The notes under the pieces were generated by a model. The model made no database searches. It was not told where the DNA came from and worked only from the letters and a program-made list of their open reading frames with translations. This document shows positions 7,335 through 13,042 of a stretch of DNA of 32,013 bases, piece by piece. The number at the start of each line of letters is the position of its first letter. Positions within the stretch are counted from its first letter, which is position 1. Origin of the DNA: Opitutales bacterium (GTDB lineage Bacteria; Verrucomicrobiota; Verrucomicrobiia; Opitutales; Seribacteraceae); contig JAQXCL010000070.1 in the NCBI GenBank assembly GCA_029251885.1, positions 1 to 32,013 of the forward strand, read 5' to 3'. The position numbers and the translations under genes were made by a program.

Positions 7335-8309
7335 GTGATAACCTCCAAGTTGCAAAGAAAAAAAAGCGGACAGACTCGCTTTTTTCCAGAAATCGCAATT
7401 TCGTGCTCCAGAGAACTTGAAAACTTAGGTTTTTCAGCAGAAGTATTTTTGATACCTGGGGGACTGGGCGTTCGCTTTCTTTCCGATCGTCAATTCTCGA
7501 ATCTCTCCAGCTTGTCTCATCTCCCCATTAGGGAGTTAGACTTTTCTAAAGTTTGTTCCTTTGACCCTGAACATATTCAATCTTTTTCACTGGAGGCTTT
7601 ATCACTTCCTAAAGGATGCACTTTTCCTTTCCGTGAATTTAAAAGGTTTAAACTTAAAAGACTGTCCGCGATCCAATCTCAATCAACTGACTTTGAATCT
7701 TTAGCTATCTTACCCATTGAGGAATTAAACTTATCCGGATGCTCTGCTCAAAACTTATCTTTTACTCATTCGATGCCTTTAACCAAGTTGGACATTTCAG
7801 GTACAAATCTTCTCGACCTTCGTCCGCTTTCTGAAAAACCATTGGAGCAATTATTTCTTCAAAACACAAAAGTCGAAAATTTATCTCCACTTACAGACTG
7901 TCCACTAGAAGAATTGAATTTAAACAAGACAGTTATTTCTGATCTTGCTCCGCTTCGAGGCAGTCCACTTCGCTCCCTAGAACTCAGAAAAACTGAGGTC
8001 AATGACCTTGGTCCATTAATGGAGTCCCCTTTAGAAAATTTAACATTGCCCGGATCTCCGATTTTCTCAATCGCTCCACTGACTTATTGTCCGCTAAAAA
8101 ATTTGAATTTAATCGGTCTCGACCTTGATGATCTATCTCCACTCAAAGAGATGCAGCTTACCAGTTTGTCTATCTCTCCACTTGAATTGAATATGGAAGA
8201 TTTTTTGCTTTTGAATGAGATCGATACGTCCTATTTGACAGGACCTGGAGATGACCTTAAACAGACTGTTAAGCAATTCATGGACAAATATAACCACGAA
8301 GATCAATAA
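7335..8309 (+). CDS. Leucine-rich repeat protein with 21-residue repeats
   Basis: This 324-residue protein has no signal peptide or membrane segment, so it is likely cytosolic. From about residue 64 it is built of consecutive 21-residue units with consensus PLxxLxLxxTxVxDLxPLxxx (see the repeat entry). The first 60 residues contain [20 protein letters not shown] and do not match a domain I know. Leucine-rich repeats of this compact kind form solenoids for protein binding. In Verrucomicrobiota and Planctomycetes they often follow kinase domains, but no kinase is present here. The GTG start at 7335 is the only in-frame start before the repeats that keeps the N-terminal segment. Function is unknown. 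Confidence 0.75.
7524..8153 (+). repeat. Ten tandem 63-bp/21-residue LRR units without indels
   Basis: Residues 64-273 of the LRR protein divide exactly into ten 21-residue units. The first three (starting PIREL, SLEAL, KLKRL) are degenerate. The next seven (starting PIEEL, PLTKL, PLEQL, PLEEL, PLRSL, PLENL, PLKNL) are clear. An eleventh partial unit starts QLTSL. The register is never broken. The DNA copies have diverged, so this is an old protein repeat rather than a recent DNA duplication. Confidence 0.85.
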
Positions 8310-8356: not shown

Positions 8357-9847
8357 ATGAATCCCAAAAGAGACCACTTAAAAGGTGCTAAAGACTATTA
8401 CGATGTTGTAGTAGTCGGAAGTGGTCTGGGGGGATTAACAGGTGCTAATTGTTTAGCAAAACAAGGACACTCTGTACTCTTGCTAGAAAATCACTATCAA
8501 TTTGGAGGCTTAGCAACATGGTTTAAGCGGGCAGGGGGACATATTTTTGATATTTCACTCCATGGATTTCCTGTAGGCATGATTAAGTCTTGCCGTAGAT
8601 ATTGGACCAAGGAAATTGCTGATTCGATTGTTCAATTAAAGAATATACGATTTGTTAATCCGCAATACGATCTTAGGACCACATTTGATCGAATGGACTT
8701 TACTAATATTCTTCACAATACCTTTAAGATTGCTCGTGAAAGGGTGGAAGAATTTTACGATCACTTGCGCAAGATGGATTATTTTGCTCAAGATGGACGT
8801 ACCATCGGGGATCTCCTTGAAGAATTCTTCCCAGGACGTGACGATGTCAAGAGGCTCCTGTTAGAACCAATTTCCTACGCAAATGGCTCATCCTTTATGG
8901 ATCCTGCGATTGCTTATGGGATTGTTTTTACTAACTTCATGCGCAAGGGGATTTATACCTTTAAAGACGGGACCGACTCTTTAATCCGTAAAATGGTTGA
9001 TGAATTACGAAGCAATGGAGCAGAACTGCGACGCCAATGTTTGGTTGAAAAACTGATTACTGAAGAGAGAGATGGAAAATCCTGCGTAACTGGAGTTATC
9101 GTTAATGGAAAAAAAATTCGCTGTGGAGCTGTTCTTTCTAATGCAAATCTAAAAAACACTATCGAAAGTATGCTTGGCCTTTCCAAATTACCAAAGAAGT
9201 TTGCCTCTCAAGCCAAAGAAGTTCGACTAAATAGCACATCCTGCCAAGTTTACATCGGGCTGAAAAAAGGGGCAGTGATTCCAGAATCGGTTGGCGACCT
9301 GATATTCACATCGGAATCTGCAAATTTCTCGACCGATGAACTCGCAGACTTTCACACTACAAGCCGTACTTTTTCGATTTACTACCCAGACACCCGACCT
9401 CATCGAAAAGACCCAAGATACAGCATTGTTGCCTCTTTAAATGCGAATTGGAAAGATTGGGGGAAACTAACCGATGAAGAATACGAAAAAGCTAAAAAAA
9501 GACTTTGCGAGGAAAGTTTGGAGGCCCTTGAAAAAATAATTCCTGATATCAGGGATAAAATTGATCATTTGGAAGCGGCCAGTCCAAGAACCATAAAACA
9601 TTATACCCAACATGCAAACGGGGCAACATTCGGAACCAAGTTCGAAGGCTTAGAAGTTTCAGGAGACTTACCGAAATACGCACCCGGACTTTTTCATGCC
9701 GGCTCGGTAGGAATTATCATGTCCGGCTGGCTTGGTACCATTAATTACGGAGTAATTACAGCTAATAAAATAGATAGCTTTTTACGGCTCAAATCAGGTA
9801 AGGACAGTCCAGACGATACAGACGAGTCTACCTTTGCCATTGCCTGA
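8357..9847 (+). CDS. FAD-dependent oxidoreductase, CrtI / retinol saturase-like
   Basis: This 496-residue protein has the dinucleotide-binding motif [20 protein letters not shown] (GSGLGG at 21-26) followed by [13 protein letters not shown]. The C-terminal FAD motif is [21 protein letters not shown]. This is the phytoene desaturase / carotenoid isomerase / all-trans-retinol 13,14-reductase superfamily, which adds, removes or isomerises double bonds in long hydrophobic chains. Length is normal. No other carotenoid genes (crtB, crtE) are nearby. Instead it lies 33 bases before a fabZ-like gene and the oleAB genes, which suggests a lipid or polyene substrate (inference). The exact reaction cannot be told from sequence. 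Confidence 0.85.
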
Positions 9848-9880
9848 GAGGCTTTAATTCTCTAGCTCTCTTCCTTGACT

Positions 9881-10324
9881 ATGGAAGAAATTTATCGTCG
9901 CATTCCTCATCGCCCCCCCTTTCTCTTTATCGATAAAATTATCGAGATTACAGAAACAGGGGCTCGTGCAGCTCTAACAATCCGTCCGGACTTTTCTTTT
10001 TTCGAAGGACACTATCCAGGTAATCCAATTATGCCTGGGGTTCTCCTATGTGAATCGGTTTTTCAAACGGGTGCCATTTTCCTGGCTGACCACTTGCAGT
10101 CCGAATCCTTAACTGACAAATCAGTAACTCCTGTACTTTCGAGAATTCGAGACGCTCGATTCAAGCGCATGGTAAAACCAGGTGACGAGGTTGAAATATC
10201 TGTAACTCTAGGCGAAAAAATGGGTCAGTTCTTCACCATGACAGGAGAAATTCGAAAAGAAGGTAAAGTTGCTCTGACTATATCTTATGCACTGGCCATG
10301 GTTAGAGAAAATCCCTCCCAGTGA
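9881..10324 (+). CDS. fabZ: FabZ-like 3-hydroxyacyl-ACP dehydratase
   Basis: This hot-dog fold dehydratase removes water from 3-hydroxyacyl-ACP in fatty acid elongation. Motifs are RIPHRPPFLFIDKI and FFEGHYPGNPIMPGVLLCES, with the catalytic His at 44 and Glu at 58 (numbered from the chosen start). I chose ATG 9881 rather than the track's TTG 9875 because it gives the family's usual 'Mxxxx.ipHR.PFL' start; 147 residues is a normal length. The stop overlaps the next gene's GTG (GTGA, 10321-10324). Because it sits between a CrtI-type oxidoreductase and fabI-oleA-oleB, it is probably a pathway-specific copy rather than the housekeeping enzyme, but that is inference. Confidence 0.88.
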   Translation: MEEIYRRIPHRPPFLFIDKIIEITETGARAALTIRPDFSFFEGHYPGNPIMPGVLLCESVFQTGAIFLADHLQSESLTDKSVTPVLSRIRDARFKRMVKPGDEVEISVTLGEKMGQFFTMTGEIRKEGKVALTISYALAMVRENPSQ

Positions 10325-11133
10325 GTTTTCTTAACCTCAGAGGAAAAAACTTTTTAGTCGTTGGAATTGCCAACCGCAAGAGTGTAGCCTGGGCCATTGC
10401 CAAGATATTAGAATCTGAAGGGGCAAACCTGCTTTATTGTGTTCGCAGCGAAAAACGACGTTTGGAGTTACAAAAAATCATTCCTTCACCAAGCCCGATT
10501 TTCATCTGTGATTTTGAAAATACTGCGGACTTAGAAAATTTACAGACCTCTCTAGAATCCGAGCGAGAACTCCAATTAAACGGCGTTGTCCATTCCATCG
10601 CCTTTGCCAATTATACTGATGGAGTAAAACCATTTTACGAAACCAAAAGAGAGGACTTTCTTCAAGCTACTCAAATTTCATCTTTTTCCTTGGTCGAATT
10701 GGCAAGGATCTGCAAACCATTCCTGGTAAAAGATGCTTCCTTTATAACCATTGGTATTTCTTCCACTGAAGTAACTGCTGAGAATTATGGATATATGGCC
10801 CCTATAAAAGCATCTTTGGAAGCTTCTATAAGATACCTTGCCAAATCATTCTCAAAGGATACTTCAGTAAGATTTAATTCGGTAAATGCTGGTCCTTTGA
10901 AAACCAGTGCATCAGCAGGAATCCCCGGATATCTCGTTAATTATTTGTATGCTGAAAAATTGACATTTCGAAAGAAAGCTTTGCAAACCGAAGAAGTTGC
11001 CAACTTGGCCGCCTTTTTATTGAGCCCTCGCTCCTCTGGAATTAATGGGCAAGGAATTGTCATTGATGCAGGAATGGGAATGAATTATTTCGATCAGGAA
11101 ATTGTTCAGGAAGCCATGCGTTTGAATCCATGA
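10321..11133 (+). CDS. fabI: FabI-like enoyl-ACP reductase
   Basis: This is a short-chain dehydrogenase fold of the FabI type, which reduces enoyl-ACP with NAD(P)H in the last step of each fatty acid cycle. Evidence: VVGIANRKSVAWAIAK near the N-terminus (the FabI form of the nucleotide motif), HSIAFAN, and YGYMAPIKASLEASIRYLA carrying the Tyr-x6-Lys pair at Y156 and K163. It ends with the usual GQGIVIDAGMGMN. Length 270 is normal. The tyrosine expected ten residues before Y156 in FabI is not seen: the stretch reads FITIGISSTE. The start is GTG overlapping the fabZ stop, and the stop overlaps the oleA ATG. It may be a diverged reductase serving the Ole enzymes. Confidence 0.85.
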   Translation: MSFLNLRGKNFLVVGIANRKSVAWAIAKILESEGANLLYCVRSEKRRLELQKIIPSPSPIFICDFENTADLENLQTSLESERELQLNGVVHSIAFANYTDGVKPFYETKREDFLQATQISSFSLVELARICKPFLVKDASFITIGISSTEVTAENYGYMAPIKASLEASIRYLAKSFSKDTSVRFNSVNAGPLKTSASAGIPGYLVNYLYAEKLTFRKKALQTEEVANLAAFLLSPRSSGINGQGIVIDAGMGMNYFDQEIVQEAMRLNP

Positions 11134-12158
11134 GTTTATCATCTGTGGTAATTGAAGGGATGGCTTACTCCCTGCCTCCCGAAATTTATACATCTTCTGA
11201 TATCGAAAAGAAGCTTTCTCCACTGTATGAATCTTTAAAATTACCCACTGGTCGCTTAGAGCTGATGACCGGAATCTCTGAGCGCCGACTTTGGCCGAGC
11301 AACTTCAAACCCTCTCAAGCCTCTGCCGAAGCTGGGCTTAAGCTGTTACAATCAGGAATTGATGGAAGCGAAGTGGATTTACTTATTCATTGCTCGGTCT
11401 GCCGAGATCGCTTGGAACCTGCTACTGCATCTTATGTTCATCGATTGATGGGACTGGGAGGCGGTACCCAAATCCTTGATATTTCCAATGCTTGCCTTGG
11501 TTTTTTAAATGCATTGGTACTGGCAGGTTCGATGATTGAAACTGGGCAAATTCGCCGAGCCATTTTGGTCTCTGGAGAGAATGGGGCACCTTTGGTTGAA
11601 AAAACCATTCAATTATTGAATGAGGATGATCATACCCGAAAATCGATCAAGCCATTTTTTGCCAACCTAACCATCGGAGCAAGTGCGGTCGCATGGTCCA
11701 TTGCCCATCGAGACTTAGTTGATAAAGATTGTCCAACCTTGGGTTCATGGGCCACGGAAACCGATACTTCCTACAATGAATTATGCCAAGGGGATGCCTC
11801 CGGTGATGACTTGGTCATGCAGACCGACTCGGAAGAACTTCTGCATGCGGGTATTTCAGTAGCTCAACGGGCATGGGCTAAATTTCTTAAAGTTCAAGAT
11901 TGGGAACCTAATGATCCAGAACTTATAATCACTCATCAAGTCGGGAAAGCACACACGCAGGCAGTGCTTGAAGCCCTTTCCGTTGATCCATCAATCAATT
12001 TTTCAAGCTTTGAACACCTGGGTAACTGCGGATCCGCATCCCTACCCATAACATATACTCTTGCGTGTGAAAAAGATCCGCAAAACCTCATAAGGAAAAC
12101 GGCACTATTGGGAATAGGCAGTGGTCTATCCAGCTTAATGCTTTCGATTAATCCTTGA
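11130..12158 (+). CDS. oleA: OleA-like acyl-CoA/ACP head-to-head condensing thiolase
   Basis: OleA joins two fatty acyl chains head to head by a non-decarboxylative Claisen condensation, giving a 2-alkyl-3-ketoacid for olefin or ketone synthesis. The protein (342 residues) is of the thiolase/KAS III superfamily. It resembles characterised OleA more than FabH: ISERRLW early, CSVCRDRLEPATAS (Glu96, the OleA-specific glutamate at the partner's active site), ISNACLGFLNA (nucleophile Cys122), ITHQVGKAHT (His269), LGNCGSASLPI (Asn299) and LLGIGSGLSS. So the Cys-His-Asn triad plus the OleA glutamate are intact. It overlaps fabI upstream (ATGA) and oleB downstream (TTGA). The alternative, a KAS III-like enzyme of another lipid pathway, is less likely given the neighbouring oleB. 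Confidence 0.88.
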   Translation: MSLSSVVIEGMAYSLPPEIYTSSDIEKKLSPLYESLKLPTGRLELMTGISERRLWPSNFKPSQASAEAGLKLLQSGIDGSEVDLLIHCSVCRDRLEPATASYVHRLMGLGGGTQILDISNACLGFLNALVLAGSMIETGQIRRAILVSGENGAPLVEKTIQLLNEDDHTRKSIKPFFANLTIGASAVAWSIAHRDLVDKDCPTLGSWATETDTSYNELCQGDASGDDLVMQTDSEELLHAGISVAQRAWAKFLKVQDWEPNDPELIITHQVGKAHTQAVLEALSVDPSINFSSFEHLGNCGSASLPITYTLACEKDPQNLIRKTALLGIGSGLSSLMLSINP

Positions 12159-13042
12159 ACATTCCATCCAATCTTAAGGATTCTTATCCTTTTGAACCTA
12201 AGCGGTTCAAACTTTCCAGCGGACATTCCCTGAGCTATCTGGACGAAGGTAGTGATGAGAAAACGCCCACATTATTCCTTCACGGTAATCCCACCTGGTC
12301 TTTTTATTACCGAAAGGCCGTCCGTTTTTGGAAGGATCATAGCAGGTGTATTGCAGTTGATCATTTAGGTTGTGGGCTTTCTGACAAGCCAAGTTCTTCT
12401 TCTTTTTCCTATAACCTGCAAAATCATGCTAACAATCTTTTGGAGTTGGTTGATTCATTAAACCTTCAAAACTTTAATTTAGTGGTGCATGATTGGGGAG
12501 GAGCAATTGGAATGACTGCTTTTGCGGATCAAGCTCATCGAATTCGTAAGATCGTATTGCTCAATACAGCTGCCTTTCCATCACGGGATGTACCTCGCCG
12601 TATTCTGTTCTGTCGACTTCCAGTCATTGGTGAATTTTTTGTCCGGGCACTCAATGGATTTGCTGGTCCGGCAACTTGGATGGCATCATCCAAAGGAATG
12701 ACAGACTCAGCTAAAAAAGGATTGCTCCAACCTTATGGGAATTGGAAAAATCGTGTGGCTATCTGGAATTTTGTTAGAGACATTCCTTACGAGCTTAATC
12801 ATCCAACCCTTTCAATTCTTCAATCCACGGCAGAAAAGCTAAAGGGATTCTCAACCACTCCAGCGATGGCATGCTGGGGAATGAAAGACTTTTGCTTCCA
12901 TGGTGGGTATTTAAAAAAATGGGAGAAGCAATGGCCCCATATAATATCCCATCGTTTTGCAGATTCGGGTCACTATATTTTGGAAGATTCTTTTGAAGAT
13001 GTAAGGGCCAAAGTAGAACCCTTCTTGTTTGCCAATGAGTAA
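12155..13042 (+). CDS. oleB: OleB-like alpha/beta hydrolase (beta-lactone decarboxylase)
   Basis: OleB is a haloalkane dehalogenase-like enzyme that decarboxylates a cis-beta-lactone to a cis-olefin, the last step of the Ole pathway. Matching parts: YLDEG, FLHGNPTWSF (oxyanion region), DHLGCGLSDKP, VVHDWGGAIG (nucleophile Asp113), NTAAFPS, YGNWKNR, RDIPYE, and ADSGHYILED (His273), with WGMKDFCF as a candidate for the acid. The NTAAFP, NWKNR and DIP motifs set OleB apart from ordinary dehalogenases. 295 residues is a normal length. The start is TTG (12155) inside the oleA stop, so expression depends on oleA translation. The beta-lactone would need OleC and OleD, which are not in this window. 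Confidence 0.87.
   Translation: MNIPSNLKDSYPFEPKRFKLSSGHSLSYLDEGSDEKTPTLFLHGNPTWSFYYRKAVRFWKDHSRCIAVDHLGCGLSDKPSSSSFSYNLQNHANNLLELVDSLNLQNFNLVVHDWGGAIGMTAFADQAHRIRKIVLLNTAAFPSRDVPRRILFCRLPVIGEFFVRALNGFAGPATWMASSKGMTDSAKKGLLQPYGNWKNRVAIWNFVRDIPYELNHPTLSILQSTAEKLKGFSTTPAMACWGMKDFCFHGGYLKKWEKQWPHIISHRFADSGHYILEDSFEDVRAKVEPFLFANE

Follow-up and report, generated by a model that had tools for sequence, protein, structure and literature searches.

Olefin biosynthesis by the Ole enzymes proceeds in four steps: OleA joins acyl groups, OleD reduces, OleC lactonises and OleB decarboxylates, giving an internal cis-alkene (PMC7158056, PMC7064751, PMC6463001). The stretch of Opitutales DNA analysed here, a window of 32,013 nucleotides, contains oleA and oleB, and the initial annotation remarked that neither oleC nor oleD accompanies them. 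Are the two genes encoded elsewhere in the genome? Or, as that annotation also proposed, do different enzymes make the substrate of OleB, or is the product something other than a simple olefin? The window is part of contig C75 of a metagenome-assembled genome (MAG) of 2.18 Mb, which is 94% complete and in 167 contigs. Here we investigate the identity of oleA and oleB, their surroundings, and the distribution of the ole genes in this genome and its relatives.

The two genes are not an isolated pair. They end a run of five genes on the forward strand (8357–13042), which opens with a FAD oxidoreductase resembling CrtI, CrtD and carotenoid isomerase (CrtI2, 8357–9847). This is followed by an extra copy of a FabZ-like 3-hydroxyacyl-ACP dehydratase (9875–10324; NF000582, 103.8 bits), a FabI-like enoyl-ACP reductase (10321–11133; NF006369, 181.7 bits), OleA, the head-to-head (non-decarboxylative Claisen) acyl condensing thiolase (11130–12158), and an OleB-type alpha/beta hydrolase, the predicted beta-lactone decarboxylase (12155–13042). 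FabZ and FabI overlap at 10321–10324, FabI and OleA at 11130–11133, and OleA and OleB by the four bases TTGA. Because these overlaps reach upstream of oleA, the unit to be explained is the whole run. The initial annotation was correct in its reading of the pair, yet made no use of the genes next to it (CrtI-like, FabZ and FabI), and these carry more information. Just 5' of the operon is a gene for an LRR-like protein (7335–8309), a position conserved across the genus and in some of the family. A literature search on olefins in Opitutae and on a link between ole and CrtI genes returned no description of this operon; the 2010 survey (10.1128/AEM.00436-10) lay outside its scope and might already discuss how ole genes are arranged in Verrucomicrobiota.

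In profile searches OleA scored 373.6 bits against NCBIfam NF006720, the cut-off of which is 285. Its best PDB matches are the OleA structures of Xanthomonas campestris at 192 bits, compared with 61 bits for the best FabH-type structure. Cys122, His269, Asn299 and Glu96 are invariant in an alignment of 16 sequences that includes X. campestris OleA, where they correspond to C143, H285, N315 and E117, the last being the OleA-specific glutamate. In a small tree the protein groups with OleA, including that of Bacteriovorax MAGs with contiguous oleABCD, and OleA is split at 100/100 from the FabH of these genomes; the X. campestris branch is long, which calls for caution over long-branch effects, and its exact place within the OleA side is unsure. 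A phylogeny outside OleA had been named beforehand as grounds for withdrawing the assignment, and the tree places the protein with OleA and not with FabH. By these sequence comparisons it is a genuine and intact OleA, predicted to condense two long acyl groups without decarboxylation.

By its family matches OleB is an alpha/beta hydrolase of the haloalkane-dehalogenase-like group. Asp113 (the nucleophile), His273, Asp245, Asn45 and Trp114 are invariant in 12 relatives. The protein is 43–44% identical to the OleB encoded in contiguous oleABCD clusters of Bacteriovorax MAGs, and homologues lie inside contiguous oleABCD at three of the retrieved loci (L185, L188 and L203). Judged from its sequence it is a genuine, HLD-III-like OleB, with predicted beta-lactone decarboxylase rather than dehalogenase activity. 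Family models, invariant residues and open reading frame ends thus agree with the initial description of a recognisable OleA and OleB with intact active sites and a TTGA overlap.

Whole-genome profile searches gave no match on C75 to the OleC family or to the 3-beta-HSD-type family of OleD; their reported absence from the 32 kb is therefore real. Both genes are present in the same genome, on contig C79, where they overlap one another. With NF006754 OleC reaches 501 bits, over a cut-off of 478; its second-best model is NF045786, the olefin beta-lactone synthetase, at 406 bits, below the strict cut-off of 900. For OleD the best model is NF042422, the 2-alkyl-3-oxoalkanoate reductase OleD, at 340 bits (E = 1.5e-101), below a strict cut-off of 580. 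In a phylum so distant, scores under the cut-offs of these narrower Xanthomonas and Shewanella equivalog models are to be expected. The first of the proposed options, that the genes are encoded elsewhere, is thus the one that the genome bears out, and true absence of oleC and oleD from the genome is ruled out. With the pair on C79, the two other options, a different route to the OleB substrate and a product that is not a simple olefin, lose their premise. The description of oleAB without oleCD holds for the window; as a puzzle it is gone, oleCD elsewhere having been foreseen as what would reduce it to a split standard pathway. Mis-binning of C79 is unlikely, given that genomes of the same genus share an oleC-oleD-trxB-tatD block (66–98% identity) and the same split. 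Replacement of OleD by the FabI of the operon is a needless assumption, OleD being present.

Is the split a peculiarity of this genome? Across this genome and its relatives, OleA exceeds its cut-off in 72 of 92 genomes and OleC in 73. In near-closed genomes oleA and oleC lie at 2.11 and 4.33 Mb (G071), 2.00 and 4.26 Mb (G074), and 2.92 and 0.74 Mb (G060), a separation of 1.5–2.3 Mb. In the retrieved flanks of 77 named Opitutales-type oleA loci, oleC does not occur once, and oleD adjoins or is near oleC in most retrieved oleC loci. Throughout the genus and in part of the family, the neighbours of oleC-oleD are trxB and tatD, whereas oleAB is flanked by the LRR gene and xerC. The neighbourhood comparison in relatives that the initial annotation had suggested thus reveals an order-wide division into oleAB and oleCD, in a pathway that is split but standard, and this division goes back a long way in the order. 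Contiguous oleABCD is usual and not required; here oleAB is on C75 and oleCD on C79. It has been described previously that ole genes can reside apart from the clusters feeding them (PMC3098273).

The company of oleA is also conserved. It is next to oleB in 70 of 74 loci, and where 4 kb or more of upstream sequence is available (56 loci) FabI is nearby in 46, FabZ in 44 and CrtI2 in 33; some loci have oleA without CrtI2, FabZ or FabI nearby. The complete run of five genes also occurs in a cultured member of the Opitutae, strain DG1235 (L182). In two ruminant-gut Opitutales MAGs (L165 and L169) and at L161, an OleA homologue stands without OleB, FabZ, FabI or any CrtI-like gene in the surrounding sequence of up to 9 kb. 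Two reduced genomes of 0.8–1.1 Mb, G066 (L090, 6904–8809) and G082, have oleA and no detected oleC in the genome. The gap is likely to be missing sequence, because a relative in each family has oleC. G066, which is 95% complete and carries oleA, oleB and CrtI2 with CrtI1 not detected, could be a real case of oleAB without oleC.

Do the neighbouring genes serve general fatty acid synthesis? FabV is encoded on C128 of the same genome, and a second FabZ is present on C76 in a 444-aa frame, with a third, FabA-like match on C129. FabZ and FabI of the window are therefore extra copies, and FabI is unlikely to be the housekeeping enzyme of this genome, FabV being present; for FabK, the genome search gave weak matches only and no real candidate. 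FabI keeps the Tyr...Lys pair in YGYMAPIK and matches PDB FabI structures (E = 6.5e-43), whose catalytic Tyr and Lys align with this pair. CrtI2 is harder to name. It matches TIGR02733 and TIGR02730 at about 102 bits, far under their cut-offs, and a PDB search gave weak FAD-domain matches only. Its orthologues are 55–99% identical across the order.

A further locus, on C117, has a FabF-type ketosynthase (KS), an acyl carrier protein (ACP) and a second CrtI-like enzyme (CrtI1) side by side; CrtI1 was found by searching with the CrtI-like protein of Synoicihabitans. Both CrtI-like enzymes score far under the cut-offs of every named family. The KS has Cys164, His302 and His338, and the ACP has the DSMD serine. 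A response-regulator-type gene lies directly 5' of KS-ACP-CrtI1 (L213, 13788–15371), similar regulator fragments lie upstream in the Synoicihabitans locus, and control of the pathway by this gene is possible. The genome has three KS matches, all in frames of about 420–430 aa; a PUFA synthase feeding OleA was rejected since this search found no large KS.

The genes that are scattered over contigs here are found together in other bacteria. Synoicihabitans, of the Opitutaceae, has KS-ACP-CrtI1-CrtI2-FabZ-FabI-OleA-OleB in one run (L199). MAGs labelled Bacteriovorax in their record titles have the order KS-ACP-CrtI1-OleA-OleB-OleC-OleD, the four ole genes being contiguous; some 3 kb further on, FabG-FabZ-FabI follow on the opposite strand. 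Their OleA, OleC and OleD match the same family models as those of the window genome, and their KS, ACP and CrtI1 are 59%, 62% and 40% identical to the C117 proteins. The gene that comes next after oleD in these MAGs is on the opposite strand and encodes a protein of about 705 aa (L185, 13584–15704; L203, 12881–14992).

Joint inheritance was assessed in 58 genomes with a completeness of 90% or more and a contamination of no more than 5%. Presence of oleA and oleC agrees in 52 of them (45 both, 7 neither), that of oleA and CrtI2 in 55 (47 both, 8 neither), and that of oleA and CrtI1 in 53 (46 both, 7 neither). Fisher p-values range from 4e-5 to 2e-7 and ignore shared ancestry; the better argument is therefore the repeated joint absence. 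Seven genomes from five families have none of oleA, oleC, CrtI1 and CrtI2, and in two of these families other genera keep them. CrtI1 and CrtI2 are co-inherited with the ole genes.

Taken together, the genome very probably encodes the standard OleABCD olefin pathway, distributed over at least three contigs and fed, as the genomic context suggests, by a dedicated type II fatty-acid-like module. As the best explanation of the observed gene content, conserved residues, synteny and co-inheritance, we infer the catalytic steps, the feeding by FabZ, FabI and CrtI-like enzymes, and the product. KS and ACP, with a FabG, would elongate the acyl chain; FabZ would dehydrate and FabI selectively reduce the chain intermediates. 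While the chain is bound to its carrier, CrtI1 and CrtI2 may introduce double bonds, isomerise them or remove them again. OleA would couple two such chains head to head, OleD would reduce the beta-keto acid, OleC would close the beta-lactone, and OleB would expel CO2 to leave an internal cis-alkene, probably polyunsaturated. By analogy with the proposal for Desulfotalea (PMC2649909), the product is probably a polyunsaturated long-chain hydrocarbon. A more specific version is tentative, and we lean slightly against it: a discrete oxygen-independent type II system of KS, ACP, FabZ, FabI and two CrtI-like flavoenzymes, common to Opitutales and Bacteriovorax, could build the polyunsaturated chain for OleA and replace the giant PUFA synthase.

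The adjoining genes could instead be incidental, with housekeeping-like FabZ and FabI and an unrelated CrtI-like gene beside oleAB, and membrane acyl groups being turned into mono- to tri-unsaturated olefins. OleABCD alone suffices in Xanthomonas-type bacteria on cellular fatty acids (PMC7064751), and FabI keeps ordinary catalytic residues. We consider this unlikely, as the genome has FabV and another FabZ besides the FabZ and FabI of the window, both CrtI-like genes have been lost along with the ole genes in five families, and the same gene set clusters with oleABCD in another phylum. Somewhat more doubtful still is a module of CrtI-like enzymes, FabZ, FabI, KS and ACP that makes a separate lipid, such as a polyene pigment or a ladderane-like fatty acid, and is merely co-localised with oleAB. 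In anammox bacteria, comparable sets are the candidates for ladderane synthesis (PMC2649909, PMC4790861), but the overlaps that join FabZ, FabI, OleA and OleB, and the joint loss with oleA and oleC, tie the module to the olefin genes, and the relative with such a set, Desulfotalea psychrophila, produces polyunsaturated hydrocarbons of C31 but not ladderanes (PMC2649909).

Might OleA and OleB still work without OleC and OleD, through another route to the OleB substrate or towards a ketone? In the absence of OleBCD, OleA by itself yields ketones (PMC6463001), oleAB is physically apart from oleCD, and G066, at 95% completeness, combines oleA, oleB and CrtI2 with no detectable oleC or CrtI1. However, the genome has both oleC and oleD, oleA and oleC are inherited together, and all four ole genes are contiguous in the Bacteriovorax relatives, which leaves this explanation hardly credible.

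The pathway shares with OleABCD of X. campestris, Shewanella oneidensis and Micrococcus luteus the four enzymes, the intact catalytic residues of OleA and OleB and the adjacent oleC-oleD. It differs from these classic systems in its split oleAB and oleCD loci, the placement of oleAB inside a CrtI-FabZ-FabI operon and the lack of a fused oleBC. A dedicated chain builder supplying OleA has a parallel in the Pfa PUFA synthase with OleABCD of Shewanella (PMC6463001, PMC3098273); here, unlike Pfa, the builder would consist of discrete type II enzymes, the KS genes being three of stand-alone size only.

Type II fatty acid synthesis (FASII) clusters with phytoene-desaturase (CrtI)-like enzymes were described in Kuenenia and D. 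psychrophila by Rattray et al. in 2009 (PMC2649909). D. psychrophila makes C31:8 and C31:9 hydrocarbons, and the authors proposed that type II enzymes build polyunsaturated chains anaerobically. Both there and here an extra FabF/KS, ACP and FabZ accompany CrtI-like enzymes (two or three there), with no large PUFA synthase, a likeness judged from the published description of the gene sets. The Opitutales set differs in being tied directly to oleAB by operon structure, and an unsystematic look at the retrieved Opitutales loci noticed no radical SAM enzyme, unlike the Desulfotalea and Kuenenia clusters. By this analogy, the module looks like the 2009 idea with ole genes attached. Anammox CrtI-like and FabF/FabZ genes expressed in Escherichia coli yielded no new fatty acids (PMC4790861), a result that speaks against the model.

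With the missing-gene puzzle dissolved, there is no alternative beta-lactone route to seek here. Instead, the neighbourhood of oleAB and the joint loss of its partners point to a dedicated enzyme set feeding the olefin pathway. The Opitutae, some of which are cultured, offer a test bed for the route proposed in 2009, in which type II enzymes would make polyunsaturated hydrocarbons anaerobically and which has also been invoked for ladderanes.
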